Shown: piece by piece, positions 4,277 to 22,500 of the stretch
Layout: each line of letters opens with the position of its first letter
How positions within the stretch are numbered: the first letter of the stretch is position 1
Made by a program: the position numbers and the translations under genes
Notes under the pieces: generated by a model
Databases searched by the model: none
Told to the model about the DNA's origin: nothing
What the model saw: only the letters and a program-made list of their open reading frames with translations
Assembly (NCBI RefSeq): GCF_009834915.1
Contig: NZ_WVHS01000003.1
Coordinates: forward strand, 839,988-903,987
Direction of reading: 5' to 3'
DNA length: 64,000 nucleotides
DNA from: Hufsiella ginkgonis
GTDB lineage: Bacteria; Bacteroidota; Bacteroidia; Sphingobacteriales; Sphingobacteriaceae

Positions 4277-6067
4277 TTGAGTGCGCAGTGCCGGCGGGAA
4301 ATAATTAAGACAGCAGATTTGAACATCGATCACTTTATTAACCGGGTAGGCCGGTCGGGTTTTATCTGCCTGTTGATAACGATGGGGTTACAAGGACGTG
4401 CGCAGCCAGGCCGGGCGGATGACCAATTGACGCGCAAACTTATCACCCCTGTTCGCATCGTATGGAAGTCTGACCAGGGGAAGATCGCCAACGCTGAACG
4501 GCTACTGCAACCCGGTAACGGCCAGGCCGACCTGGGCAACCGGAACCTCTGCGTAATGCAAAGCACACGCGAAGGGAATCCGGGCATCCTCCTGGATTTC
4601 GGGAAAGAGCTGCATGGCGGTATCCAGGTGGTAACGGGTTTATGGAAGGGCAACCAACCGGTGCGCGTTCGGATCCGTTTGGGGGAGTCGGTAAGCGAAG
4701 CCATGTCGGAGATCGATACCGTGAAGGGTGCTACTAACGACCACGCCATGCGCGACTTTGAAACAAAGTTGCCCTGGCTTGGCAGGTTCGAGACCGGGAA
4801 TTCAGGGTTCCGTTTTCTGCGCATCGATGTGCTCGACGGTGATGTTACCCTGCTCCTGAAAGAAGTGAGCGCCATTTCTATCTATCGCGATATCCCTTAC
4901 CTGGGCTCCTTCCGATGCAGCGATACCCTGCTGAATAAGATCTGGCAAACCGGCGCGTACACGGTGCACCAGAATATGCAGGAGTTTTTATGGGATGGCA
5001 TAAAGCGTGACCGCCTGGTTTGGGTGGGCGACATGCATCCCGAGGTAGCTGCTATCCACGCCGTATTCGGCCATAACGGCGTGGTGAACAAAAGCCTCGA
5101 TCTTTCCAGGGACATCACACCGATTCCGGGCTGGATGAATGGCATCAGCGCTTATTCGATGTGGTGGATCCTGATCCAGCGAGACCTCTACCTGTACCAG
5201 GGTGATAAGGTTTATCTCGCCGCACAAAAAACATACCTGGCAAAACTTGCTGCTCACCTCGCGGGAAAGATAGATGCCAATGGCGCCGAAATACTCGATG
5301 GCAACCGTTTCCTCGATTGGCCCAGCAGCGAAGACCCCAAAGCGGTACATGCCGGTTTGCAGGCACTGATGGTACTTTCGTTATCCGCCGCGGCGGAATT
5401 GCTGACGACGCTGGAGGACCAGGCGGCCGCCCGGATATGCACCGAGGCGGTGACAAGACTAAAGAAAAATGTGCCTCCTGTAAATGATTCGAAACAGGCC
5501 GCAGCTTTGCTTTCACTTTCAGGCCTCATCCCGGCTGGGGAAGGCGACCGCGTGATCTCTGCAGGCGGAGCAGCCAATTTTTCGACTTTTTACGGCTACT
5601 ATATGCTGCAGGCGATGGCGAAAAAGGGGAACTATACCGGCGCATTGCAGAATATCCGTGAATACTGGGGTGGGATGATCAAGCTTGGCGCTACTAGTTT
5701 TTGGGAAGATTTTAACCTCGCCTGGATTCCCGGTGCGGCGGGCATCGATGCGCCGGTACCCGCGGGAATGAAAGATATCCACGGCGACTTTGGCGCCTGG
5801 TGCTATAAAGGTTTTCGCCATAGCTTATGTCACGGCTGGGCATCTGGACCAACCCCCTGGCTAACCGAGCATGTGCTGGGGATCAAGGTGATTGCCGCCG
5901 GATGCTCGGTGATCCGAATCGAGCCGCACCTTGGCGATCTGGCGTTTGCGGAAGGTTTCTTTCCCACGCCCCACGGGTTGCTAAAGGTAAAGCACCGGAA
6001 ACTGGGCAACGGTAAAATAGAATCCGTCATCCGGGCGCCCAAAGGCGTAAAGATTATCCGGGGCTAA
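4277..6067 (+). CDS. Alpha-L-rhamnosidase, glycoside hydrolase family 78
   Basis: The C-terminal two thirds is an (alpha/alpha)6 barrel of GH78: the block FLWDGIKRDRLVWVGDMHPE includes D240, the expected acid, and GATSFWEDF includes E477, the expected second carboxylate. SLCHGWASGPTPWL and a beta-sandwich tail follow. These enzymes release terminal L-rhamnose from glycosides and polysaccharides. A hydrophobic stretch (FICLLITMGLQG) ending GRAQ at about residue 43 looks like a signal peptide, implying export. No ATG precedes it in frame: the frame opens with TTG at 4277, and the first in-frame ATG (4382) would cut the hydrophobic core. The start is therefore uncertain. At 596 residues it is shorter than many multidomain GH78 enzymes. 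Confidence 0.85.
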   Translation: MSAQCRREIIKTADLNIDHFINRVGRSGFICLLITMGLQGRAQPGRADDQLTRKLITPVRIVWKSDQGKIANAERLLQPGNGQADLGNRNLCVMQSTREGNPGILLDFGKELHGGIQVVTGLWKGNQPVRVRIRLGESVSEAMSEIDTVKGATNDHAMRDFETKLPWLGRFETGNSGFRFLRIDVLDGDVTLLLKEVSAISIYRDIPYLGSFRCSDTLLNKIWQTGAYTVHQNMQEFLWDGIKRDRLVWVGDMHPEVAAIHAVFGHNGVVNKSLDLSRDITPIPGWMNGISAYSMWWILIQRDLYLYQGDKVYLAAQKTYLAKLAAHLAGKIDANGAEILDGNRFLDWPSSEDPKAVHAGLQALMVLSLSAAAELLTTLEDQAAARICTEAVTRLKKNVPPVNDSKQAAALLSLSGLIPAGEGDRVISAGGAANFSTFYGYYMLQAMAKKGNYTGALQNIREYWGGMIKLGATSFWEDFNLAWIPGAAGIDAPVPAGMKDIHGDFGAWCYKGFRHSLCHGWASGPTPWLTEHVLGIKVIAAGCSVIRIEPHLGDLAFAEGFFPTPHGLLKVKHRKLGNGKIESVIRAPKGVKIIRG

Positions 6068-6122
6068 AGCTTAAAGTTCCGGATCCTAAGTTTATATTCG
6101 ATCATTACTAGCCAATTGATAC

Positions 6123-8786
6123 ATGTTTCGTTGCTGTGCCGTCTTCCTGTTCCTGGCTAACACCGCACTGGCCGCTGTGGCTGCAGATTTCGTGGTAACC
6201 ACCAACGCTGCCGCCGGGGCGGGTTCTCTGCGCGAAGCGTTGACCAATGCCGCCAATAACGGCTCGGCCACTGAAGACCGCATCTTATTCAACCTCCCGG
6301 GAAATACCGTAGACGATCGAACGATCCTGGTAAACAGCCTGTTACCGGAACTCTCTTCAAACCTGGTGATCGACGGAACGTCGCAGCCCGGCAGCCCCAT
6401 CGGCGATACAAACGCCAAAGTGATGATCAAGAGCCTGCACGATACCGGAAATACGATGGCCATTTTTAAAGGAACGGGTATCACCGGCCTCGGGATCTAC
6501 GGTTTGTTTTTTAACGATGAAAACGACCCCGGCGGTTACCTGCCCGACCATAGCGTAAAATCAGGTATAGAGCTGCACGATTGCGAACGCATCACGATCG
6601 GGAAGAAGAACGCCGGCAACATTTTTAACGGGTATAACCTTTTTAGCCTTTATATAGACAATGGCCGCGAGATCCATGTATCTGCCAACGGTTTCGGTAC
6701 CGGTGCGGTGGCGGGCAGCTACGTGTCCACAGGCTTTATTTTTATCAACAAGATCTACAACCTCTACTTCGGTGGTACCGGCGAAGGCAATGTGGTGCTC
6801 ACCAACGTGGAGATCGTACTCTTTGCCGGGGCAGAAAAATCGGTCATCCGCGTAGCGGACAATAATTTCGGCACCGGCGCCGATGAGCAAAAGATAGCTG
6901 CCGCCCGGGTTTCTACCGGCTTTTTTGCGGTGCGAAGCGCAAACGGCAATAATCCAAAGCCGGTTACCGACCTGGTGCTGCACAATAACGTGTTTGCATA
7001 CCGGTGTTTTCTTTCCTACCTGGCGGGAAATATCGCGGTGCATGGGAATTACTTCGCTACCAGTCGTTCGTTGAGCACCAACCTCGGCTTTACTTCCGTA
7101 GAGATCGCCGATCGTAGGCTGCTGGATGCGGGCGACCTGGATGCCGATCTTTTCCTGGGCACCAATGACCCCGGCGGCAGGAATTACTTCGCGAACAGCG
7201 ACTATGGCATCCACGCGGTACGGTGCAGCCGGGTCAGGCTGGTGAACAATTCATTTACGTGCGTAACAAAGGAATACCAGTATTCGCAAAACAGGCTGCC
7301 TATGCCGGCGATAGCGCTCACCGGCGCCACCGCCTCCAGCCTGAAAGGCGTGGCTACGCCCGGTACCCTGGTAGAGATCTTCCTGTGCGATCACTGCAGC
7401 TGCTCTGCGCAAACCCTGGTGGGCAGCGTAACGGCATCGCCGGACGGCAACTGGGAGTTTCCCAAATCCGTTCCCTATACTTCGCAGCTGATCGCCATCG
7501 GCAGCCTGGGAGATCAATCATCGGGTTTTACCAAACCTTTTATGAACAGTGTCAACGTAAAGATCACGGCATCAACTTGCGGGAAAGGAGGCGCCATTTG
7601 GGGCGTCGACCTTCAAAATGCCCCAATCTTTAAATGGGTGGATGTAAATGGTAACACGGTGGGCACCTCCAGCGACCTGCGTAACGTGTCGCCGGGAAAG
7701 TACAAGCTGGTTGTTGGCGAATACTGCGCTTTCGAAAGCGAATATTTCGAGGTGAAAGATGAGCCGCCTGCATTTCCAATTTACCCGGAAATGGTTACGC
7801 CACCGCAATGCGGCCGGGATAACGGCGCCATCGAGGTGCTGATCACACCGAACGGGGTACAGCCAAGCACCATCCGGTGGGAAAACGCGGCGGGCGTGAC
7901 CATCGGCAGCAGCCCGAAAATGAAAGACCTGCCGGCGGGTGAATATGCCCTGTACCTGGGCGATGCAAACGGCTGCGAAGTCTTTATAAAAAAATACACG
8001 CTGGTGCAGACCGCGCCGCTCCAGGTAGTTAACAACCAGCTGCTGGTAACCCCGGACGAGTGCGGACAGGGCAAGGGTGGTGTGAGCGGACTTTCCGTTA
8101 CCGGCGGAACAGCCCCTTTTTCTTATGCCTGGAAAGACGCGCTGGGTGGTATTGCAGGCACGTCGCCGCAGCTCACCAATGCCAAAGCAGGGACGTACAC
8201 CCTGGTGGTAACCGATAATGGCGGCAGTGCGTGCGGTACCGCGCGATTCACGGTAACGATTCCCGACCGCACCTCGCCTCCCGACCCGGTGGTCCCCGAT
8301 ATCGCGGTCTGCGCACCGGGAGCCGTACAGATACGGGTTACCAATCCCTGGCCGGGGACCTATAACCTTTATACCTCGCCGGCGGCGGTAAGCCCGGTAC
8401 AGCAGAGCGCCGACGGGCTGTTCACCGTCCCGGTAACGGAAGCCGCGGATTGGTACGTGGGCTACCAACAGGGAAGCTGCGCCAGCAACCGGGTACGGGT
8501 GAGCATTACCATCGCCGACGATGCGTTAAAGCTCGCGACACTCTTCACGCCGAATGGCGACGGCATAAATGATACCTGGACCATTCATGGCATCCAGAAC
8601 TATCCACGGGCCATGTTACGCATCTACAACCGCAATGGCGAAGAGATTTTTCGTTCAAAAGGCTATGCGGCGCCTTTTACCGGGAAGATTAAAGAACGCG
8701 AGCTCCCGATGGGCGTTTATTACTACCTGCTGGACCTGGGTACTGATTGTAAGCCACTCAGCGGAAGTTTGATGCTGGTGAGATGA
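6123..8786 (+). CDS. Secreted beta-helix/SprB-repeat protein with gliding-motility-associated C-terminal (type IX sorting) domain
   Basis: The protein has 887 residues and a signal peptide (MFRCCAVFLFLANTALA). Residues of about 20-400 show the regular beta-strand and Asn/Gly turn pattern of a right-handed parallel beta-helix, starting with the GSLREALTNA block typical of polymorphic-outer-membrane and pectate-lyase-like domains. Several Ig-like SprB-type repeats follow (GGTAPFSYAWKDALGG and related blocks). The last 85 residues are a CHU_C-type sorting domain with FTPNGDGINDTW, YNRNGEEIF and MGVYYYLLD. Known proteins with this end are secreted by the type IX system and stay on the cell surface. 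A carbohydrate-binding or adhesin role is plausible beside the rhamnosidase, but no catalytic residues are recognised. Confidence 0.85.
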   Translation: MFRCCAVFLFLANTALAAVAADFVVTTNAAAGAGSLREALTNAANNGSATEDRILFNLPGNTVDDRTILVNSLLPELSSNLVIDGTSQPGSPIGDTNAKVMIKSLHDTGNTMAIFKGTGITGLGIYGLFFNDENDPGGYLPDHSVKSGIELHDCERITIGKKNAGNIFNGYNLFSLYIDNGREIHVSANGFGTGAVAGSYVSTGFIFINKIYNLYFGGTGEGNVVLTNVEIVLFAGAEKSVIRVADNNFGTGADEQKIAAARVSTGFFAVRSANGNNPKPVTDLVLHNNVFAYRCFLSYLAGNIAVHGNYFATSRSLSTNLGFTSVEIADRRLLDAGDLDADLFLGTNDPGGRNYFANSDYGIHAVRCSRVRLVNNSFTCVTKEYQYSQNRLPMPAIALTGATASSLKGVATPGTLVEIFLCDHCSCSAQTLVGSVTASPDGNWEFPKSVPYTSQLIAIGSLGDQSSGFTKPFMNSVNVKITASTCGKGGAIWGVDLQNAPIFKWVDVNGNTVGTSSDLRNVSPGKYKLVVGEYCAFESEYFEVKDEPPAFPIYPEMVTPPQCGRDNGAIEVLITPNGVQPSTIRWENAAGVTIGSSPKMKDLPAGEYALYLGDANGCEVFIKKYTLVQTAPLQVVNNQLLVTPDECGQGKGGVSGLSVTGGTAPFSYAWKDALGGIAGTSPQLTNAKAGTYTLVVTDNGGSACGTARFTVTIPDRTSPPDPVVPDIAVCAPGAVQIRVTNPWPGTYNLYTSPAAVSPVQQSADGLFTVPVTEAADWYVGYQQGSCASNRVRVSITIADDALKLATLFTPNGDGINDTWTIHGIQNYPRAMLRIYNRNGEEIFRSKGYAAPFTGKIKERELPMGVYYYLLDLGTDCKPLSGSLMLVR

Positions 8787-8880: not shown

Positions 8881-10050
8881 ATGAACAGAAAATTAAGAAT
8901 GGGAATGATCGGCGGAGGCAAGGACGCCTTCATCGGTGCTATTCACCGGATCGCTGCGAACATGGATGGCCTTGCCGAGCTGGTATGCGGCGCATTGAGC
9001 ATTAACCCCGAGATCGCAAAAGAAAGCGGCAAGATGTTGTTCCTCCCCGCAGAGCGCACCTACCTGAACTTCCAGGAGATGATCGAGAAAGAAAGCCAGC
9101 TCCCCGAAGATGTCCGTATGGATTTCGTCACCATTGTTACCCCAAATTTTGCGCATTTCGCACCTGCCATGCTGGCCCTCGAACATGGTTTCCATGTGGT
9201 GATTGAAAAGCCGATCACGCTTACGCTCGGGGAAGCCAGGCAGCTGCAGCAAAAAGTGGAAGAAACCGGTTTGCTGTTGTTGTTAACGCATACGTATTCG
9301 GGTTACCCCATGGTAAAACAGGCCCGCGAAATGATCAAAGCGAACGAGCTCGGCAAGATCCGTAAGATCTACGTCGAGTATCCGCAGGGATGGCTCAGCA
9401 CCCTCACCGAACGGGAAGGGAATGCCGGGGCAGCCTGGCGCACGGATCCGAAGAAATCTGGCAAAAGCGGTTGTATGGGCGATATAGGCACCCATGCCGC
9501 CCACCTGGCAGAGCACATTTCAGGCTTAAAGATCACCGAGCTTTGCGCAAGCCTGAACATCGTTGTGCAAGGCCGCGGTCTCGACGACGATGGCAGCGTT
9601 CTTTTGAGGTTTGATAATGGCGCTACCGGCGTACTGATGGCCAGCCAGGTAGCGGCAGGCGAAGAAAACGCATTGAAGATCAGGCTGTATGGCGAGAAAG
9701 GCGGTGTGGAATGGGCGCAGCAGGAGCCTAACTCGCTGGTAGTAAAGTGGCTCGACAAACCTGCGCAAACTTACCGGGCAGGTGTAAACTATGGCGGCCT
9801 CGTATCAAGCTATGCCACGTATAACGCGCGTACGCCCGGTGGTCACCCGGAAGGGTACCTCGAAGCGTTCGGGAACTTATACCGCAACTTCCTTACCTCG
9901 CTGGCCGCACGCATAGACGGTACCGAGCCAGCCGCGGAAGCAACCGATTTCCCTTCAGTTGCCGATGGCGTTCGTGGAATGGCCTTTATCAATAACGTGG
10001 TTAAAAGTAACGAAAGCAACGAAAAGTGGACGGCATACAGCCTGGATTAA
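8881..10050 (+). CDS. Gfo/Idh/MocA family oxidoreductase
   Basis: The protein has 389 residues. The N-terminal dinucleotide-binding motif is GMIGGGKDAFIGAIHR. The family motif is intact (HVVIEKPITLT), as is the later substrate-binding His region (GCMGDIGTHAAHLAEH), where D and H are expected to hold the substrate and aid hydride transfer. Family members are NAD(P)-dependent sugar or cyclitol dehydrogenases of the cytoplasm. It is separated from the secreted protein upstream by 94 bases and is convergent with the next gene, so it is probably its own transcription unit within the carbohydrate locus. Confidence 0.88.
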   Translation: MNRKLRMGMIGGGKDAFIGAIHRIAANMDGLAELVCGALSINPEIAKESGKMLFLPAERTYLNFQEMIEKESQLPEDVRMDFVTIVTPNFAHFAPAMLALEHGFHVVIEKPITLTLGEARQLQQKVEETGLLLLLTHTYSGYPMVKQAREMIKANELGKIRKIYVEYPQGWLSTLTEREGNAGAAWRTDPKKSGKSGCMGDIGTHAAHLAEHISGLKITELCASLNIVVQGRGLDDDGSVLLRFDNGATGVLMASQVAAGEENALKIRLYGEKGGVEWAQQEPNSLVVKWLDKPAQTYRAGVNYGGLVSSYATYNARTPGGHPEGYLEAFGNLYRNFLTSLAARIDGTEPAAEATDFPSVADGVRGMAFINNVVKSNESNEKWTAYSLD

Positions 10051-10061
10051 CCGGCTGAGAA

Positions 10062-10898
10062 CTATCCGCCCAGCTTAACTTTCAGGATATTGCCGGCGCC
10101 ATTGCCGCCTTCATTCGAAATAAAAAGCTCGCCGGAAGGGGAAAAGGTAATCCCTTCCGGCTGCTTAAACTCCTTGCGGTTAAGCGGTACCAATGAGGTG
10201 ATCCTTCCCTGCCGGTTCAGGGACAGTATTTTAGGATCAGGCCCGTCTACAACGTAAAGCTGGTCGTTTACCGGGTTTATGGCAATGGCCGAAGGGTGGA
10301 CGCCTGTTTTCTTTTTTTTCTTGCCCGAGGTAAATAGTTCATCGTCCTGGTTGATGCGGTAAACCGGTTCCGGGGCCATTTTCATCGTTTGAAGACTGAA
10401 CGCATAAATGCCTTTCACGTTTTTGCCGTTCGGGTCCGAATCCTTTACCGCGATCAGCAACCGGTTATTCTTACGGTCGAAACATAATCCTTCCGTATTA
10501 TTGCCGGCTGTAAGCGGCGTTTTATATTGTGTGATCACGGGCGCCGCAGAACGATAGTTTTTAACCTGGAAGATCAGTCCGTCCGAACGCAGCACCCAGG
10601 CGGTTGTTCCGTTTACGGCCAGTCCCTCAAAATCGCCCGGGCCATAGAAACGGATCTTGCTCTCCACCTCCGCGGAAGCGGTATTGTAGATATAAATATG
10701 GCCCGACTCGTCCTGTACGCAGGCAAAATGCGTGGCGTCCAGGTAGGCGAGGGCAGAGATCTCGCGCAGGGCGGAAGGGAGTTCGTATTTCGCCGTCACT
10801 GCCACCGTTATACCCGCCGGTATTCTTGCCTTAAATTTGAAGGCGGCGGCAGCTACTCCTGCAAACGCCAACGTGGCAATGAAAATGAATTTTCGCAT
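10062..10898 (-). CDS. SdiA-regulated-family beta-propeller protein, secreted
   Basis: The protein has 278 residues from the ATG at 10898; the longer frame begins with a TTG three codons earlier. MRKFIFIATLAFAGVAAAAF is a signal peptide. The body matches the SdiA-regulated/phytase-like esterase propellers: repeats such as EISALAYLDATHFACVQDESG, FEGLAVNGTTAWVLRSDG, NNTEGLCFDRKNNRLLIAVKD, HPSAIAINPVNDQLYVVDG and QPEGITFSPSGELFISNEGG. The family is poorly characterised and likely periplasmic or lipid-bound. It is convergent with the Gfo/Idh gene, with 11 bases between stops, and divergent from the kinase-like/barrel gene. Confidence 0.78.
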   Translation of the reverse strand: MRKFIFIATLAFAGVAAAAFKFKARIPAGITVAVTAKYELPSALREISALAYLDATHFACVQDESGHIYIYNTASAEVESKIRFYGPGDFEGLAVNGTTAWVLRSDGLIFQVKNYRSAAPVITQYKTPLTAGNNTEGLCFDRKNNRLLIAVKDSDPNGKNVKGIYAFSLQTMKMAPEPVYRINQDDELFTSGKKKKKTGVHPSAIAINPVNDQLYVVDGPDPKILSLNRQGRITSLVPLNRKEFKQPEGITFSPSGELFISNEGGNGAGNILKVKLGG

Positions 10899-10974
10899 GG
10901 CAGACAAGGTAGAAAATTTACCTTAATTCTTTATCTGCCTGCATTAACGGTAACTTTACGGAAGAATACCGAGA

Positions 10975-13626
10975 ATGCCGCCGATAACCGCCCGATTACG
11001 CCTTTTATTTCCGGGAACCCTTCTTTTGCATGGTTGTTCAGCCATGTTGCTGGTATTATTTTTACCGATTAGGATGTGGGCACAGGGTGGCAGTTCAGAC
11101 TCGATCACTGTGGCTATTGAACCGGGATATAACCAGGCGAGCGGCAGTCACCGTTTTTTTCTCGGTGAGAATTATCGCGAGCTGTGGGCTACACCGGTAC
11201 CACTGCGCGTAGTAAGCCTGGCTACCGAAAAAGGCGGCATGAAAATCCTGCAGGTAAATGGAGGTCACCAGACCAAATCGCTGCGGCTGGAAGATCCTTC
11301 CGGTAAACAGTGGGTATTGAGAACTATCCAGAAATATCCCGAAAAGGGCTTGCCAGCCAACCTCCGGCCTACGGTTGCCAAAGATATTTTGCAGGACCAG
11401 GTGTCGGCCGTGCATCCGTTTTCGTCGCTCACGGTACCACCCCTGGCTGCGGCGCTGGGTATTCCGCATTCGGACCCGGAGATCGTGTACCTGCGCGGTG
11501 ATGCCTCGCTCGGCCAATACCGCAAGGAATTTGCAGACCAGGTTTTCCTGCTCGAAGTGCGTGAGCCGGTCGCATCCGGTAAAACCGAAAATACCCCGAA
11601 AGTACAGCGCGAGCTGCAGGAAGATAATGATAACCGCGCCGACCAGCGACTGGTGCTCCGTGCCAGGCTGCTGGATTTCCTGCTTGGCGACTGGGACCGC
11701 CACGAAGACCAATGGCGATGGGAGGAAACCGGCGATAAAAGCGATAAGTTATATAAGCCCGTGCCCCGCGATCGTGACCAGGTGTATTATAAAACGTCCG
11801 GAATTATCCCCTGGATCGTGTCACACCAATGGCTCAAGTCAAAATTCCAGGGATATAGCGGCGCCATCCGCGATGTAAAGGGGTGGAACCTGCAGGCACA
11901 AAGCTTCGACCGGTACTTCCTGAACCAGCTGGATGAACAGGATTGGAAAGAGGAGATCGCGGTGGTACAGCACACGGTCACTGACGAGCTGATCACCAGT
12001 TCGCTTAAACGGATGCCGGCGAAGATCTACCAGCTTTCCGGCAAAGAGATCGCCGAAAAGATGATCTCCCGGAGAAACCTGCTCTCTGCGCAAGCCATTG
12101 ACTATTACCGTTTTCTGGCGCAGACCGTAGAGGTGCCTTTAACAGATAAACGCGACGATTTTAAGATAACCGAAGCGACGGGAGGGGAGCTGGACCTCGT
12201 GGTCCGTAAAATAAAAGCCGACGGAACATCGGGTAAGATCACTTACCGGAGAAGATTTGTCCCGGAGATTACCAAGGAGATCCGTGTATACGGCATGGGT
12301 GGCGAAGACGTGTTCCTGGTTACCGGTAAAGGGAAGTCACCGATCAGGATAAGAATGATCGGCGGAGAGGGCGCCGATAGTTTTTCGGTCGATCCCGCCT
12401 GGGCAGGGAAAGGCAAACTGTATGTTTACGACCGCCGGGATGAGGCGAATAAGCTTCCCGATCGCCGCCTGGCGAGGATCCGTACCGCCACAGACACTGT
12501 AGTGAACAGTTATCATAAAACCGGTTTTAAATATGACCGAACCGGGCCGATTTTCCTGGCTAACTACAACAACGACATTGGTTTGTTACTTATCGGCGGT
12601 TTTATGCGCGAGAAGCAGGGGTTCCGCAAGGAGCCTTACGCTTCGAGGCAGCAATTTATCGCCAATTATTCGCTGGGCAGGGAGTCTTTCCTGCTCAACT
12701 ATGAAGGGCGCTGGACCGGGGCCTTCGGCAAGAACGATCTCGGGTTAAACATCCTCTCCCGCGGACCGGGAAACCTGTCGAACTTTTATGGTACGGGCAA
12801 TAATTCAGTATTTGTCGACACCGACGATGATGATATCCCCGGCCACGACGATGACGATGATGTGCATGATGGCCAGGATTTTTACCGTAACCGTTATGAT
12901 TACGTTACCGGCGACATCTCCCTGCATCGCCAGGTAGACAAATACCGTTTCAGCGCAGGTCTTGCCGGGCAGTTTTACCACAGTGATCCATCAAATAACC
13001 GGGGACGTTTCCTGGAAACCTACGCGGCGCAGCACCCGGGCGAAAAAGTGTACGGCAGCCAATATTATGCGGGAATAACCAGCCAGGTTGAGCGGGATAC
13101 ACGCGACAAGCACGTGCTGCCCAACGCGGGTACTTACTGGAGCACTACCGTGTCGGCTTTTAAAGGCATAAACGCCGGTACAGGCACGTATGCGCAAGTG
13201 CTTTCGGAATTCTCATTTTACTTTAGTCCGCTTGGCGATTCGGCCCTGGTGATCGCCAACCGCACCGGTGCGGGGACCATTGTCGGCCAGGCCGCTTATT
13301 TTCAGCAGATGAAGCTTGGCGGGGCGCAAAACTTCAGGGGTTTTCACACCAACAGGTTCACCGGTAAAAGTATCTTTTACGATAACCTCGAAATGCGGTT
13401 GAAAGTGCTTGATTTTAACTCGTATTTGCTGCCGGGTACGCTGGGGCTGATAGGCTTTACCGATATCGGGCGTGTGTGGCTGCCCGGCGAGTCTTCCGGC
13501 ACGTGGCACGAAAGTTACGGAGGCGGGATCTACCTCGCGCCGGCACAACTGATCCTATTGCAGGGAGTGGTCGGGTTTTCGAAAGAAGGCGCGCTGCCGT
13601 ATGTCTCTGTCGGTTTCAGGTTTTAG
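10975..13626 (+). CDS. Outer-membrane protein: kinase-like domain fused to a surface-antigen (BamA/TamA-type) beta-barrel
   Basis: The protein has 883 residues. A signal peptide ends at about residue 37 (LFLPIRMWAQ); an internal ATG at 11044 would also give a good signal peptide. Residues of about 95-290 contain TKSLRLEDPSGKQWVLRT, LLDFLLGDWDRHEDQWRW (D-R-H at 241-243) and VPRDRDQ (263-269). These recall the Lys strand, catalytic loop and metal-binding Asp of HipA/Fam20C-like kinases; this is inferred from motif shape alone. From about residue 540 to the end are alternating beta-strands finishing in F (YVSVGFRF), like a 16-strand Omp85-type barrel, with an acidic DDDDDVHDGQD loop near residue 625. 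It is a paralogue of the C-terminal part of the 19513-25080 frame. POTRA domains are not apparent. Confidence 0.72.
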   Translation: MPPITARLRLLFPGTLLLHGCSAMLLVLFLPIRMWAQGGSSDSITVAIEPGYNQASGSHRFFLGENYRELWATPVPLRVVSLATEKGGMKILQVNGGHQTKSLRLEDPSGKQWVLRTIQKYPEKGLPANLRPTVAKDILQDQVSAVHPFSSLTVPPLAAALGIPHSDPEIVYLRGDASLGQYRKEFADQVFLLEVREPVASGKTENTPKVQRELQEDNDNRADQRLVLRARLLDFLLGDWDRHEDQWRWEETGDKSDKLYKPVPRDRDQVYYKTSGIIPWIVSHQWLKSKFQGYSGAIRDVKGWNLQAQSFDRYFLNQLDEQDWKEEIAVVQHTVTDELITSSLKRMPAKIYQLSGKEIAEKMISRRNLLSAQAIDYYRFLAQTVEVPLTDKRDDFKITEATGGELDLVVRKIKADGTSGKITYRRRFVPEITKEIRVYGMGGEDVFLVTGKGKSPIRIRMIGGEGADSFSVDPAWAGKGKLYVYDRRDEANKLPDRRLARIRTATDTVVNSYHKTGFKYDRTGPIFLANYNNDIGLLLIGGFMREKQGFRKEPYASRQQFIANYSLGRESFLLNYEGRWTGAFGKNDLGLNILSRGPGNLSNFYGTGNNSVFVDTDDDDIPGHDDDDDVHDGQDFYRNRYDYVTGDISLHRQVDKYRFSAGLAGQFYHSDPSNNRGRFLETYAAQHPGEKVYGSQYYAGITSQVERDTRDKHVLPNAGTYWSTTVSAFKGINAGTGTYAQVLSEFSFYFSPLGDSALVIANRTGAGTIVGQAAYFQQMKLGGAQNFRGFHTNRFTGKSIFYDNLEMRLKVLDFNSYLLPGTLGLIGFTDIGRVWLPGESSGTWHESYGGGIYLAPAQLILLQGVVGFSKEGALPYVSVGFRF

Positions 13627-15712: not shown

Positions 15713-18115
15713 TTAGTTATGCTCCAGTACCATCCCTTTGCTGAACTTTTTCAGCATTTGTTTTTGCTCTTCCGTGCCGGTGTGGTAGTTTACGCTTACG
15801 CGGATGGCTTTTAACCCGCTCACGCCCTGCAGCTCTTCCAGCTCCAGGTGTTCTACCGCTCCCTCCAGCAGCTGTTGTTCGTGCAGGTAGTTGATATACT
15901 CCTCGTATTCTGCCGCTTCGGCCTGGTTAAAGTACACCAGCGCGATCTTGCCCGGCTGTGTAAGCCTTTCCGAGGTGTTCTTGACCAATACCTTATCGAT
16001 TCGCTTTTTAATCACCTCGTACCGGATGTTATAGGCGCCTTCTACGTCAAAACGACGTTCGTCGTTACGGAAACTGATATCGATATGGCTGGAATGCACG
16101 AAGATCAGCTGCGTGGTTTCCAGCAGCCTGGGCATTTTTCCGGCCAGGTTGCGTGTTAGCCGCGCGATATCCACCATCGAGGTAAGTTGCCAGAGCCGGA
16201 TATTTTTAAGATATAACACGTCAAACGGACGCTCTGGCGCGATAGCCTGCCCGATGTAGATGTCGTACTCGATCCCGTCCGTTCTGAATTTGCCGAAATA
16301 GCACGGGTAGGAGCGCTGTAGTTGCTGCTGTGCGTTTTCCAGGTAATGGCTCACCGAAGAGTTGATGAGCTGCATGGACGTCTCGAGGTTACGGCGGTGT
16401 TTAAAAGCAATACCGGTTTCCTCATCTATTTCGGCAAAGTAGGCGTTTACAATATCTTTTGTTTCCGGGTGGATCTCTTTAAAATGCCGCAGGAATGAAT
16501 GCGCCTCTTCGTTGAGGAAGTTGGTGAGCATGATCTCGTCATTGGTGGTAATGAGGTTACCGATGCGCATCAGCCATTCTTCGCTGTTAAATATCAGCTT
16601 ATCCGTTAGATTAAGCGGGATGGTTTTTTTAAGGGCGCGCAGCGTTTTAACGAGTTGTTCCAGCAGCGCTTTAAGATCGTCCTGCAGGGCGATGTTGCGT
16701 TCGGCCGTGGAATTGCGGATATCGATGGCGCCGAAGAGGGGGTACATATCTTTAAACGTTACGGTATCGATCTCTACCATTTTCTCGCCGTCGCGGGTTT
16801 TCTTCAGGTAGTTCCACGCGGTTTCGTTAAACTTCCACTGCACCGACGGCTGAAGGGACGTAAACTTATCCTTCAATACCGAGTCAAGCCGTGCATTGAA
16901 CTCGTCGATGGTGTGCTTAAACAGCTGTCCCAGCAGCGGAAGGGCTGCCTGGATCCTGGAGATCAGTCGCTCATCAAATACCAGCGCTTCTTTGGAGTAA
17001 ACCTCCATCAGGCCCGCCAGCTGTTTATTATGAAAAACAGGGAACAGGGCGTAAGCATACACGCCCATCTGTGCAAATACCTTCAGCAACCGCGGGTCCA
17101 TTATGGTATCTGCGTTCAGTTTATTAAAGAAGATCGGTTTGGGGTTTGCCAGGTATTTTTCGAACAGGCTGCAGAAATTCTCCTCGGATAGTTCAGCTTT
17201 CATGGCCGAATCCATCAGGAAACTTTGCGAGCGGGCCTCCATTTCAAATACCAGCTCGCCGTTGATGGTGAGAAAGGGCAGCAGGCCGAACTCGATGTTC
17301 CCATTACCGGCGATCGTTTTAAACGACTGTATAACAGAAGCGAACTGCGTTTCTTCAGGCTGATGGCTCACCAGCGCGTTACGCATGGTATCGATGGCGT
17401 GCTGTACGCTTACATCGGTCAGCGTGATCACCGAAAATCCTTCGAAGGAGAAGCGCGATAGCGGCAGCAGCGTATTCAGCAGTTCCAGCTCGCTGCCCTC
17501 GCTGATCTGTGCGCCGATCACTTCAAAGTTAAGTTCCGGAAGATCGCCGTCAAAATGGATGTCTACAAACCGCGAATCGTTTTCGATGCGGTAAAATTGG
17601 GTGATGTTGGATACGGGATCGGTATACGACTTGATCATCGCGTCGTTGGTAACCGAGGTATAATTGTAAAACCGTTTCAGGATCAGGCGGTAAATAAAAC
17701 GCAGCTGGTGGTTTTTAAAGGTCTCCCCGGCGCCCGGTGCTTCCTGGCCTTTCAGCCCCTCGTGGTGCTGGAAAAGCGAATGAAACGCGCTGGTGCTAAA
17801 AAAGATCTGGTCGGGTATAGGGGTGCTGAGCGCCCAGAATACTTCTTTCTCATCGGCGACGATCGGGGTAAGGATCATATAAACCAGCTCGAGCAGGTCG
17901 CGGTAGGCCTGGCTGTCTTCCTTGCGGAGACAAATATCCTGTGGCGCTTCCTTTTCAAACCGGTCGAGAACGAACCGGTAAAATTCCGCCTTAATGGCGT
18001 CTTCAGTAGCAATCCGGCTTTTCAGGTAATCGAGAAAGGGACGAAACGACAATGTGGAAGCCACCTGGCAATGGTCAGATCCATCTTTATTTATTTGGAG
18101 TAATTGTGTATGCAT
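15713..18115 (-). CDS. Large GAF-domain-type protein of unknown function
   Basis: The protein has 800 residues and no signal peptide or clear membrane helix, so it is probably cytoplasmic. A GAF-like region lies at about residues 320-400 (MGVYAYALFPVFHNKQLAGLMEVYSKEALVFD), ending in helices. The rest is mixed alpha/beta with no catalytic motif I can name. The segment YPLFGAIDIRNSTAERN looks like the first metal-binding motif of class III nucleotide cyclases, but no partner motif follows. It is divergent from the HD-PycTM gene across a 187-base gap, so the two may be co-regulated. I know proteins of this kind only as uncharacterised Bacteroidota GAF proteins. Confidence 0.7.
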   Translation of the reverse strand: MHTQLLQINKDGSDHCQVASTLSFRPFLDYLKSRIATEDAIKAEFYRFVLDRFEKEAPQDICLRKEDSQAYRDLLELVYMILTPIVADEKEVFWALSTPIPDQIFFSTSAFHSLFQHHEGLKGQEAPGAGETFKNHQLRFIYRLILKRFYNYTSVTNDAMIKSYTDPVSNITQFYRIENDSRFVDIHFDGDLPELNFEVIGAQISEGSELELLNTLLPLSRFSFEGFSVITLTDVSVQHAIDTMRNALVSHQPEETQFASVIQSFKTIAGNGNIEFGLLPFLTINGELVFEMEARSQSFLMDSAMKAELSEENFCSLFEKYLANPKPIFFNKLNADTIMDPRLLKVFAQMGVYAYALFPVFHNKQLAGLMEVYSKEALVFDERLISRIQAALPLLGQLFKHTIDEFNARLDSVLKDKFTSLQPSVQWKFNETAWNYLKKTRDGEKMVEIDTVTFKDMYPLFGAIDIRNSTAERNIALQDDLKALLEQLVKTLRALKKTIPLNLTDKLIFNSEEWLMRIGNLITTNDEIMLTNFLNEEAHSFLRHFKEIHPETKDIVNAYFAEIDEETGIAFKHRRNLETSMQLINSSVSHYLENAQQQLQRSYPCYFGKFRTDGIEYDIYIGQAIAPERPFDVLYLKNIRLWQLTSMVDIARLTRNLAGKMPRLLETTQLIFVHSSHIDISFRNDERRFDVEGAYNIRYEVIKKRIDKVLVKNTSERLTQPGKIALVYFNQAEAAEYEEYINYLHEQQLLEGAVEHLELEELQGVSGLKAIRVSVNYHTGTEEQKQMLKKFSKGMVLEHN

Positions 18116-18302
18116 ATCAGGGAGTTAGCGCATTAGGTGATATGTTTCTGTGAATCAGTGAACTAACGGTACAAAGTTACGGCTTATAATGATTGGTTCG
18201 TCAAATCCGTGTAATTTAGAAAAAGGGGAAGACAGCAGTCCGCAAACAAAAACGGAATCAGGTATATTTACGGGACACAACATTCCGAAATCCAGGCACC
18301 CA

Positions 18303-19526
18303 ATGGACTACACAGCAGCGCTTGCAAAAGTTAAAGAGCACGTATCAGCCTTCTTTGATTCACATAAGAACGGTGAGCTCGATTATCATAACCAGGTACA
18401 TACCGAAGCTGTAGTTGAGGCGGCGGCGCAGATCGCAAACCATTACCAGCTCGACGGGCGCGACTTCTTCGTAGTGAACGCGGCCGCGTGGTTTCACGAT
18501 ATCGGTTATTACATTGATTTCGTGAACCACGAAACGGTAGGAGCACAGGAAGCCGTTAAATTCCTCGCATCAATTAACATCGACGAAGAAACGGCGCAGG
18601 CGGTGGCCGATTGTGTGGTCGCTACCTCTATGCCCCAACGTCCTGGCGGCCTGCTGCAGCAGATCGTTTGCGATGCCGACTTCTATCACCTCGGCACCGA
18701 CCACTTTAAAGAAAATAACCGAAATGTACGTAAAGAATTTGGCGTGTTGTGGAAGGAGAAACCCGGCAAATCCGCCTGGCGCGAAAAGACCATCCTGCTC
18801 CTGGAAAAGCACCGGTATTTTACGGAATACTGCCAGTTGCTGCTGAATGATAAGAAGCAGGAAAACCTGGATTGGCTGCTTTCGCGAAGAAAAACAGAAC
18901 CTGAGGCGACCGCCGCGCCGAAGGAACTGATAACCGCTGCGCCGCCGCCGGTAACCGAAGATCCGTCATCGGGTAAAAAGGGCAGGAAAGACCGGCCCGA
19001 GCGCGGCGTAGAGACCATGTTCAGGATCAGTTCGGCCAACCACCAACGGCTCAGCGACATGGCCGATAACAAAGCTAACCTGCTGATCACGGTCAATGCG
19101 ATCATTTTATCGGCTATTCTAAGCTTGCTGCTCAGGAGGTTAGAGGATTACTACTACCTCTCGATCCCTACCGTGATCATCCTCACCGTGTCGGTACTCA
19201 CCGTGGTTTACGCGATCCTGGCTACCAGGCCGTCGATCCCCGGTGGGACGTTTACGCCCGAAGACCTCACTGCACGCCGGGTGAACCTGCTGTTCTTCGG
19301 TAACTTCTACAAAATGGGATACGAGGATTTCGCCGGTGGAATGGAAGCCATGATGGAAGATAAAGAGTTCCTCTATGGAAGCCTTATCCGCGACCTGTAT
19401 TCGCAGGGTATCGTGCTGGGCAAAAAATACCGGCTTCTGCGTATCGCCTACAGCATTTTTATGTTCGGCATCGTCGTTGCCGTGATTGCCTTTATTATTG
19501 CCACGTTAATTCATGGAAAAGATTGA
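18303..19526 (+). CDS. HD-domain phosphohydrolase fused to a PycTM (Pycsar effector-type) membrane domain
   Basis: The protein has 407 residues from the ATG at 18303; the frame is open to 18189 but that part is low-quality leader. Residues 1-190 are an HD domain with H-HD-D ligands (YHNQVHTE, WFHDIGY with H65/D66, VCDADFYH), a fold that hydrolyses nucleotides or cyclic dinucleotides using metal. A charged linker rich in Ala, Pro and Lys spans about 200-235. Residues 239-407 match the PycTM family: SDMADNKANLLITVNAIILS followed by membrane helices at about 255-273, 280-305 and 380-402. In Pycsar defence the stand-alone PycTM is opened by cCMP or cUMP and damages the membrane. No pyrimidine cyclase gene is recognisable nearby. 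Its end overlaps the polyphosphate kinase start by 14 bases, so translation is probably coupled. Confidence 0.85.
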   Translation: MDYTAALAKVKEHVSAFFDSHKNGELDYHNQVHTEAVVEAAAQIANHYQLDGRDFFVVNAAAWFHDIGYYIDFVNHETVGAQEAVKFLASINIDEETAQAVADCVVATSMPQRPGGLLQQIVCDADFYHLGTDHFKENNRNVRKEFGVLWKEKPGKSAWREKTILLLEKHRYFTEYCQLLLNDKKQENLDWLLSRRKTEPEATAAPKELITAAPPPVTEDPSSGKKGRKDRPERGVETMFRISSANHQRLSDMADNKANLLITVNAIILSAILSLLLRRLEDYYYLSIPTVIILTVSVLTVVYAILATRPSIPGGTFTPEDLTARRVNLLFFGNFYKMGYEDFAGGMEAMMEDKEFLYGSLIRDLYSQGIVLGKKYRLLRIAYSIFMFGIVVAVIAFIIATLIHGKD

Positions 19527-22500
19527 TCCTAAGGCGGTTGAGGCAGTGAATTACGCCTTCTTTAACCGCGATCTCAGCTGGCTTTCGTTTAATGAGCGGG
19601 TGCTGCTGGAAGCTGCCCGTCCACAGGTGCCGGTACTGGAACGCATCAAGTTCCTTTCGATCTACTCGTCTAACCTCGATGAGTTTTATCGTGTGCGCGT
19701 ACCCTCGCTCACCGCGCTCAAAAAAGTAAAGCTCGGCGAAAGCGCGTTGCCCGAAACAGATGTCGACCCTAAAGGCGTACTGGCAAGGGTAAAAGAAGTG
19801 ACCGGCAGGCAGCAATCGCTGTTTGGAACTATCATCAGGGAACAGATATTGCCTTTGTTAAAGGCCGCCGACATTCATTTGTTATATAACGAAGCGTTTG
19901 ATGCTGACACGGAGGCGGCGGCGACCCGCTATTTTTTTTCTACGGCCCTGGCTTTTATGCGCCCGGTAGCGCTCACCGCGGACACCTCGTTCTTCCCGGA
20001 AAATAACCAGCTCTATTTACTCAACGTGCTTGGTACCGGGGCCGACGAAGAGGAACTTGTGCTGCTTAATATTCCCGCCAACCTGCCCAGGTTTCATTCC
20101 TTTGGCGGAACGGGACAGCGCGTGGTGGTTTTCCTCGATGATGTTATCAAGGCGAACCTCGCTTTCCTGTTCCCGGGGAAAGAGCTGCTCGGCAGCTACA
20201 GCATTAAAGTGACCCGTGACGCGGAATTGGAGCTGAAAGACGAATATGAAGGCGACATCGCCGATAAAATAGAGAAGCAACTGGCCAAACGTGATTATGG
20301 CCTGGCTACCCGCGTGTTATATGATGCGAAAATTCCGGTGCTAATTCTCGAACGGTTTTCACGCTTCCTTAACCTCGGCAGTGCCGGGATGGTAGAGGGG
20401 GGCCGTTACCATAATTTAAAGGACCTGACAAGCTTCCCGGTAAACCGGGCGGACCTGTCGGAACCGTCCTGGCCTGCGTCGCCACCCGCAACGGAACCGG
20501 GCGTTCCGCTTCTTGAACAGGTAGCGAAGAATGACCTGGTGGTCCATACCCCTTACCAATCTTACGAAACGGTACTCAGGTTCTTCAATGAAGCCGCCAC
20601 AGACCCTGCCGCGGAAGAGATCTATGTAACCCTTTACCGCGTGGCGAGCGATTCGCAGATCGTGCACTCCCTGATCACCGCGGCGATGAACGGGAAAAAA
20701 GTGACCGTTTTTATCGAGCTGAAGGCACGTTTCGACGAAGCAAACAACCTGAAATGGGCCAGGCGGCTGAAAAGTGCCGGCGTAAAGATCATTTACAGCA
20801 TCTCATCGCTGAAAGTACACGCTAAGATCGCGCTGGTAAAACGCAGACGGGGGGAACGGATGCAGTACCTCGGGCTATTCTCCACCGGAAACCTGAACGA
20901 AAGTACGGCCCGGTTTTATACCGATCACATCCTCCTTACCGCACATAAAGAGATGCTCCGCGAAGTAGAGCTTCTTTTTATTTTCCTCGGGAAGCGCAGG
21001 AAGCCGCCAAATCCCGGTAAGATCGCCTTTAAGGAGCTGCTGGTAGCCGGCTTTAACCTTCCTCAGCGTTTTACCGCCCTCATCGACCGCGAGATCGCGG
21101 CGGCCCGGTCGGGCAACCCCTCCGGCATTACCCTGAAGATGAACAACCTGGAAGAGCAGGCACTGATCGGGAAGCTATATGAAGCCTCTAACGCAGGCGT
21201 ACGGGTGAACCTGGTGATGCGCGGCATTTGTTGTCTCATTCCGGGTGTGAAGGGCATGAGCGCCAACATTACCGTAAAACGGATAGTAGACCGCTACCTG
21301 GAACATGGCCGGATCTTTATCTTTGAGAACGGCGGCGCGCCCCTGGTTTTTATGGGCTCTGCCGACTGGATGATCCGGAACATTCACCGCCGCATTGAGG
21401 TATGTTTCCCCGTATACGATCCCTCCATCAGGCAACAGGTACTCGACATGGTAGCGCTGCAATGGGCGGATAATACCCAGGCGGTGCTGCTGGATGAAGA
21501 TCTCCAAAATGTGCTGCCCGAAGTGTCGGCACCCGCTGTCCGCTCACAGGAGGCGATCTATAAAATGCTGCTGATGGTGCTGGTGTTCCTCTGTTGCGGT
21601 CCCGGGCTGCGTGCGCAGGATAGCCCGGTTTATCGCATGGTCCTGATCGGCAATGCCGGAAGCGTGAACGCAGTGCAGCAGCAGGTGATAAAGCATGCCG
21701 CGGCGAACGTGCTTCCAAATAGCACATCGGTACTATATCTTGGCGATAACGTTTATCCGCGCGGCGTCGCCCTTCCGGGGCAACCCGGTGAAAAGGAGAC
21801 GCACGAGGTATTGATATCGCAGTTTGCACCGATGCGTAAAGCAAATGCGCCTGTTTTTTTTATCGCCGGTGAGCATGATTGGGACAACGCCGGGCCGCTG
21901 GGCCTGCAAAAGGTGCAGCAGCAATGGCAGTTCCTGGCCGACCGGCAGGATAACGGGCTGCGCATGATACCGGCTAACGGCTGCCCGGATCCCGTAGAGA
22001 TCGCAGTAACCGACCAGCTAACTATCATCGCGTTCGATAGTGAATGGTGGCTCCATACTTTTCCCGCAGGCAATGCCGAGAATGAATGCAGTTGCAGGAC
22101 CAGGAACGACGTGACCGCGCAATTGGAGGAACTGCTTTATAAAAACAGGTTCAAGGTGGTGATGCTGGCCTCGCACCACCCGTTTAAAACATATGGACGG
22201 CATGGGAGCAGCTTCTCGCTGGCTTCTCTTTTTGCCTCGCCGCAGGATGCCGGGCACCCCCTGTACAAAGCGATGACCACAAAATTGGGTAAGCTGCTGG
22301 AAGGCTACCCGAATGTTGTGCAGGTATCCGCTCATGACCACGGGCAGCAACTGATCGGGACTAAGACATTACAGGTGGTAACCGGCGGCGGCGCCGCGGA
22401 AGGCCGGGTAAAGAAAGGCAAAAATACCCTGTTTGCCGATAATAGCGCCGGCTACGTGACCATAGACCTGTTAAAAGACCAAGCCCTGAGATTTAACTTT

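Follow-up and report, generated by a model that had tools for sequence, protein, structure and literature searches.

The gene at positions 10975 to 13626 on the forward strand of a 64,000-nucleotide stretch of Hufsiella ginkgonis DNA (contig NZ_WVHS01000003.1; hereafter the window) is open throughout and encodes a protein of 883 amino acids (aa), in which, by translation, Pfam matches, and predicted models, a signal-like start is followed by a kinase-like domain, a beta-rich linker, and an Omp85 barrel. On balance, we favor the reading that this protein is an extracytoplasmic phosphotransferase with a protein-kinase-like fold, anchored in the outer membrane and paired with a phosphatase on an envelope substrate; its catalysis, substrate, and phosphoryl donor we infer.

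A second copy was found at residues 1029 to 1855 of the 1,855-aa frame at 19513 to 25080, sharing 37% identity with the 883-aa protein, and a third is encoded on a different contig of the same genome (locus L003, 1,251 aa), with Metallophos (PF00149, E = 4.2e-8) and Omp85 both above the Pfam cutoff. A first-pass annotation, made from the sequence, had proposed that the two window copies are paralogs with common motifs, and this was borne out: TKSLRL or SKSLRL, LxGDWDRHEDQWRW, and VPRDRDQ are present in both. Matches to a 506-residue region of the protein were present in 22 of 60 genomes; with a profile of this region, the phylum yielded matches at E <= 0.001 in 114 of its 296 sampled genomes (own genome counted in both; a few of the profile matches were weak). 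Judged by sequence, the likeness of the window copies is homology over whole domains and not chance, since the region and its profile matched across these genome sets. No Pfam or NCBIfam family was found for the kinase-like domain. In a Pfam scan of 71 members no family was common to them, each family matching at most 3 of the 71, with a best E value of 0.01 among the 25 of 43 families listed.

Fold and motifs of the kinase-like domain

Residues 40 to 545 were modeled with AlphaFold from a 71-row alignment without templates (model number plus 39 gives the residue), with a predicted local distance difference test score (pLDDT) of 90.5 and a predicted template modeling score (pTM) of 0.90. Foldseek against the PDB returned five matches at E <= 0.001, which were three CtkA chains (best, 2.9e-5), PI4KIIalpha (9.1e-5), and Rio2 (3.9e-4), with CotH and HipT next at about 3e-3. 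The template modeling scores of the matches were modest, at 0.27 to 0.31 by query length, which is due in part to the inclusion of the beta-rich linker in the model. Foldseek's own match list was reexamined using VIA-align, in which PI4KIIbeta was the best match (Z = 14.7; root mean square deviation [RMSD] of 4.0 over 246 residues; 11% identity), followed by CotH (Z = 14.4; RMSD of 3.8 over 245 residues), CtkA (Z = 12.7), HipA (10.9), HipT of Legionella (10.5), Fam20A (10.1), and 4kqa (10.0); VPS34 also resembled the modeled fold. The model range aligned on PI4KII, CotH, and CtkA (37 to 342) places the domain at about residues 76 to 382 (11200 to 12120, forward strand). A search of a viral structure library gave four matches at E <= 0.001, two to named kinases and two to uncharacterized proteins.

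Sequence profiles pointed the same way at lower strength. A profile search of 177,635 PDB sequences gave one match up to E = 10, a weak one to CtkA (E = 0.091) with the DRH loop aligned, and a single-sequence phmmer search of the PDB gave chance-level matches only (best E, 0.21). Using hhalign, a profile built from 30 CotH proteins belonging to the phylum scored 25.8 against the kinase domain, compared with a mean of 14.6 and a maximum of 20.7 for 100 column-shuffled controls, and the alignment put both catalytic motifs in register (GDWDRH with GMWDNY and VPRDRDQ with IPYDYDN). With the first alignment, CotH scored 22.6, HipA scored 18.0, and four unrelated neighbor families scored 13.6 to 19.6, the lead of CotH being slight. 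On this modest profile score, CotH is a plausible nearest kin. The Pfam CotH model (PF08757) did not match the 883-aa protein at E <= 1 and was absent among the 25 of 43 families listed for the 71 members; nor did the 883-aa protein match the Pfam models HipA_C, PI3/PI4 kinase (PF00454), or Fam20C. Taking the model matches and the sequence profiles together, there is little doubt that the domain has a bilobal protein-kinase-like fold. The first-pass annotation had suggested structure prediction and a fold search, an unrelated fold to count against a kinase, and it was a protein-kinase-like fold that these returned.

The putative functional motifs all lie on the forward strand. The glycine-rich loop, GGxQTxSLRL, and the strand WVLRTIQK, with the conserved R116 and K120, are encoded at 11257 to 11334. 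The candidate catalytic-loop motif, LGDWDRHEDQWRW (D239, D241, R242, H243, and Q246; 11683 to 11721), aligned to FDRHNGNW of CtkA and GMWDNY of CotH, and the candidate metal-site motif, VPRDRDQ (D266 and D268; 11761 to 11781), aligned to IPYDYDN of CotH. In the model, the glycine-rich loop falls between strands 51-56 and 63-67, R116 is in strand 73-78 with K120 four residues on, D141 is in helix 95-105, and E194 is in strand 150-156; the DRH loop connects helix 185-198 to strand 208-215, and D266 and D268 come just after strand 218-225. As modeled and aligned, the order of these elements along the chain, as distinct from their distances in space, is that of a kinase domain.

Conservation was examined in 151 rows spanning the domain, of which 86 came from a motif-based scan, 63 came from profile or protein searches, and 2 came from the window. 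This set holds matches reaching from model position 20 or lower to position 340 or higher, with truncated or degenerate relatives (e.g., L124, L126, and L122:3936-5123) left out. As the motifs served as search patterns in the scan, their conservation in its 86 rows is no evidence. Among the 63 rows from profile or protein searches, D239 and D266 were retained in all; R116, K120, D141, R242, W247, and D268 were retained in 62; and E194, D241, H243, and Q246 were retained in 61. The first-pass annotation had assigned the kinase lysine to TKSLRL, the catalytic loop to DRH, and the metal aspartate to VPRDRDQ. The DRH loop and the DxD motif do stand at the expected places along the chain, whereas the TKSLRL lysine is not conserved (present in 15 of the 63 profile-found rows and 40 of the 86 motif-scan rows) and R116 and K120 are (62 of the 63 and 85 to 86 of the 86). 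With these residues kept, the kinase-like domain is probably active.

Barrel, phosphatase partner, and gene neighborhood

The beta-rich linker, made up of short strands, corresponds to model residues 345 to 466 (12124 to 12489, forward strand; limits approximate) and is absent from the stand-alone kinases of 423 to 425 aa. Behind it lies a 16-strand Omp85 barrel (12538 to 13617, forward strand), so the joining of a kinase-like domain to an Omp85-type barrel, as first annotated, is upheld by Pfam, the full-length model, and Foldseek. Omp85 (PF01103) is the sole Pfam match of the 883-aa protein (residues 634 to 845; E = 5.9e-11; 42.9 bits against a cutoff of 24), and in the NCBIfam scan an Omp85 model matched below its cutoff. 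The full-length model (pLDDT, 89.6; pTM, 0.84) contains 16 long strands, with BamA and TamA barrels among its best Foldseek matches (best, 7.3e-12). Omp85 proteins are marked by a loop-6 RGF motif and a DxG motif, and the barrel carries RGF at 13336 to 13344 and FxDxG at 13456 to 13470. No POTRA domain was found in the Pfam scan of the 883-aa protein, and in the model the linker runs straight into the barrel.

Read from an internal ATG, the second paralog (21565 to 25080, forward strand) comprises a signal-like start, a metallophosphatase, a kinase-like domain (22705 to 23622, forward strand), and an Omp85 barrel, as identified by Pfam and the alignment of the copies. The first-pass description of this copy gave the kinase domain and the barrel correctly and missed the metallophosphatase, which lies between the PPK part of the frame and the kinase domain (21649 to 22344, forward strand; motifs at residues 713 to 944; Pfam E = 0.0022, below cutoff). 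In the 883-aa protein the Pfam scan found no PF00149. In an alignment of 91 long forms, each metal-site residue of the phosphatase motifs is retained by 79 to 91 of them. In the fused copy, residue 714 is N instead of D (retained in 83 of the 91), residue 787 is E instead of N (79), and residue 940 is A instead of G (84); because these positions depart from the motif residues, its metallophosphatase may be inactive.

By architecture, the 151 rows consisted of 91 with a long N-terminal region and a barrel, 42 short forms with a barrel, 11 without a barrel (one of them, L051, a broken frame), and 7 left undecided by cuts at locus ends; these counts are not frequencies, as the barrel-less rows were fetched on purpose. 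In a quick tree of 143 labeled rows, the three architectures require at least 10 changes. The stand-alone kinases at loci L116 to L119 are of 423 to 425 aa with an N-terminal membrane helix, and those at L120 to L123 are of 498 to 560 aa, several with a lipoprotein-like start (both judged by eye). At L123 and L243, from genomes of the same genus, a kinase, a metallophosphatase, and a bare Omp85 barrel (recognized by Pfam or the kinase profile) are encoded by three adjacent same-strand genes. Three barrel-less kinase relatives lie side by side at L120 (4129 to 9148), two on one strand and a copy with the altered loop DWSRRED on the opposite strand; the relative at L122:3936-5123 also has DWSRRED. 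A Ferruginibacter metagenome-assembled genome (L044) carries two tandem genes of the kinase-Omp85 type (4653 to 7490 and 8957 to 11506), one of the short and one of the long form.

Four neighbors in the window proved to be conserved: an HD domain and PycTM protein (18189 to 19526, forward strand), a SdiA-regulated/phytase-like beta-propeller protein (10062 to 10907, reverse strand), an 800-aa protein whose GAF match is weak and under the cutoff (15713 to 18115, reverse strand), and the 684-aa PPK1 part of the second frame (19513 to 21564, forward strand; TIGR03705, 658.6 bits). The survey covered 11 to 19 kb around each of 54 loci (53 genera, one genome twice) chosen from the 114 matching genomes. 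HD-PycTM-type genes were the commonest neighbor, at 40 loci (8 of the 40 products being only 191 to 271 aa), followed by the SdiA-regulated propeller at 26, the GAF-like protein at 18, PPK1 at 11, and a TPR histidine kinase at 9. As a control, single-sequence phmmer searches of the same 54 loci found each of 24 other window proteins at 0 to 2 loci and the neighbors at 40, 19, 18, 11, and 4. For the relatives in named genomes (80 of 581 confirmed loci, from the motif-pattern scan; flanks of up to 5 kb), the figures were HD-PycTM at 40, SdiA at 33, GAF at 19, PPK1 at 13, and the TPR histidine kinase at 8. The link to PPK proposed in the first-pass annotation thus extends beyond the window. L140 and L141 each carry a same-strand row of GAF, kinase, SdiA, PPK1, and HD genes, and L142 has this row minus GAF. 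The relatives with which the fused window copy groups are L140, L142, and a Mucilaginibacter copy, L141 being one step removed. The third paralog has HD-PycTM and SdiA neighbors of its own (L244), and no cluster gene was found in the roughly 9 kb upstream and 7 kb downstream of the other PPK1 gene of the genome (L245). By Pfam and PADLOC, the window HD-PycTM protein matches PycTM and 2TM effector models, and a defence or nucleotide-signaling link is possible for this neighbor; PADLOC gave no model match for the other three window proteins tested.

In the window, PPK1 runs in frame and without a stop into the envelope protein (junction, 21544 to 21573). PPK homology ends at residues 684 to 686, residue 685 is a methionine opening the signal-like stretch, and the ATG at 21565 has AGGAGG 11 bases ahead of it. 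The fusion is not a general feature: the best PPK is unfused in all 8 Mucilaginibacter genomes (frames of 675 to 702 aa), and no frame holds both PPK and kinase at 134 neighbor-survey loci, some of which end inside genes. At L248 (12424 to 15101), PPK1 adjoins a gene of the histidine phosphatase superfamily (PF00300, E = 7.5e-13), and this pair lies at least about 1.4 kb from a kinase-Omp85 gene that has an HD-PycTM-type neighbor.

Proposed mechanism and alternative explanations

In the favored reading, the POTRA-less 16-strand barrel would hold the protein in the outer membrane, and the kinase domain would be positioned by the beta-rich linker, most likely facing the periplasm. The loop aspartate D241 would activate the acceptor, D266 and D268 with Q246 would bind metal, and R116 and K120 would hold the donor phosphates. 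A calcineurin-type metallophosphatase, in the same chain in most relatives, would oppose the kinase, so that phosphate would be put on and taken off an envelope substrate, and the system would belong to a conserved gene set of PPK1, HD-PycTM, the SdiA-regulated propeller, and the GAF-like protein. If this is true, reversible phosphorylation would take place at the outer membrane, a compartment where none is expected, by a domain present in 114 of the 296 sampled genomes of the phylum, and it becomes testable which phosphate donor and substrates serve extracytoplasmic bacterial kinases. Polyphosphate is an attractive donor because PPK1 recurs in the cluster, and in the window organism PPK1 and the kinase-Omp85 enzyme are encoded in one open frame. 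That polyphosphate made by the cluster PPK1 is delivered to the envelope as the donor in an ATP-free compartment, with the linked phosphatase reversing the mark, is a guess encouraged by the gene neighborhood, and one to which we give little credence. The PPK1 link may concern signaling rather than supply, since HD-PycTM has defence-like features and PPK1 was beside only 11 of the 54 and 13 of the 80 loci.

Several observations weigh against an active enzyme of this kind. The periplasm is not expected to contain ATP, and the placement of the kinase domain there, while most likely, draws on Omp85 biology only. No Pfam kinase model matches the 883-aa protein, the figures of hhalign itself for CotH are modest (probability, 3.9%; E = 0.011; E = 0.057 with the first alignment), and HipA was rejected as the nearest family, as a profile of 29 HipA proteins scored 19.6 against a control maximum of 24.7 although the fold matches. 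Standard kinase motifs have a lysine in strand 3 and an asparagine in the catalytic loop; read against these, the lysine seems to be replaced by an arginine and the asparagine by a glutamine. L120:7469-9148 reads DWSRRED in place of DWDRHED, and L124 (2811 to 4541) and L126 (2877 to 4940) retain the Omp85 barrel with kinase motifs reduced or lost, making them apparent pseudokinases. These degenerate relatives indicate that the fold can serve without catalysis.

Such features would suit a pseudokinase scaffold, in which the kinase fold would stand in for POTRA as a docking domain in the periplasm and the barrel would insert or export a client without any phosphate transfer. We regard this explanation as possible but rather unlikely. 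It agrees with an extracytoplasmic place without ATP, with the atypical arginine and glutamine, and with the relatives that have lost motif residues, two with the barrel (L124 and L126) and one without it (L120:7469-9148); most known Omp85 barrels are also insertases or translocators (in part from PMC4104836). It does not readily explain why 61 to 63 of the 63 profile-found rows retain the residues presumed to act in catalysis and metal binding, nor the recurrent pairing with a phosphatase. Since the barrel-less, stand-alone kinases L116 to L119 keep DRH and DRD/DxD, the domain is moreover not a mere accessory of the barrel. The same stand-alone proteins, with their N-terminal membrane helix, fit the periplasm better than they fit a type Vd-like export in which the kinase domain, and the phosphatase with it, would reach the cell surface by way of the barrel and act on outside molecules. 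An Omp85 precedent for such export exists in PlpD, with its patatin domain (PMC4104836), but PlpD has a POTRA and none was found here, and we consider this improbable. Least in keeping with the data is a defence or stress system, in which a nucleotide or polyphosphate signal would be sensed by the HD-PycTM cluster and answered by the outer membrane kinase and phosphatase through modification of surface molecules; this we judge very improbable. The frequency of HD-PycTM-type genes (40 of 54 loci) and the PycTM and 2TM effector matches of the window protein speak for it, but 8 of these 40 neighbors may be without PycTM, PADLOC had no match for the three other proteins of the window that were tested, and presence in 114 of 296 genomes of many families is more suggestive of a standing function.

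Comparison with known systems

Omp85 proteins with PF00149, or with nothing, before the barrel have been described as the "Metallo" and "noNterm" subfamilies (Heinz and Lithgow 2014, PMC4104836), a work that terms PF00149 a metalloprotease and finds "Metallo" conserved only at the genus level. The long relatives described here very probably belong to "Metallo," and the kinase-like domain gives a likely identity for the middle part of these published proteins. Judged by PF00149, membership differs between the copies: the 883-aa protein lacks the domain, L003 has it, and the second paralog has it weakly, below cutoff. The word "kinase" is absent from the available text of PMC4104836, and neither "kinase" nor "phosphatase" appears in the available main text of PMC12611786, on BAM of Bacteroidota, or PMC12045153, on TamL. 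No paper on a kinase-Omp85 protein was found by title or abstract in the open-licence PMC literature. The Omp85 precedent for an attached enzyme-type domain, PlpD with patatin (PMC4104836), has the POTRA that was not found in the window protein.

The kinship to HipA- and Fam20C-like kinases first proposed holds at the level of fold (Z = 10.9 for HipA and 10.1 for Fam20A), but by the tests run, CotH, PI4KII, and CtkA are nearer. CotH phosphorylates spore coat proteins, and its D228Q form is inactive (PMC7821199). CotH (PF08757), of the Bacillus spore coat, has the fold (VIA-align Z = 14.4) and the motif register in common with the window protein, whereas the Pfam CotH model is out of reach, the profile match is modest, and the Omp85 barrel and phosphatase partner are found here. 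Type II PI4 kinases are alike in fold but are eukaryotic lipid kinases without a barrel, at 11% identity. CtkA of Helicobacter, the best Foldseek match and the only PDB sequence-profile match, differs in having a solved chain of 325 residues in sequence, without barrel or phosphatase. HipA and HipT are alike in fold but are cytosolic toxins without a barrel, and the HipA profile did not rise above controls. Fam20A and 4kqa, a Golgi casein kinase which we take to be of the Fam20C type, are also alike in fold and work outside the cytosol; they are animal proteins, and no sequence link to them was found. The fold and the barrel are both of kinds already known; what is new is their union, together with a phosphatase, in a large family to which no Pfam or NCBIfam name could be matched.

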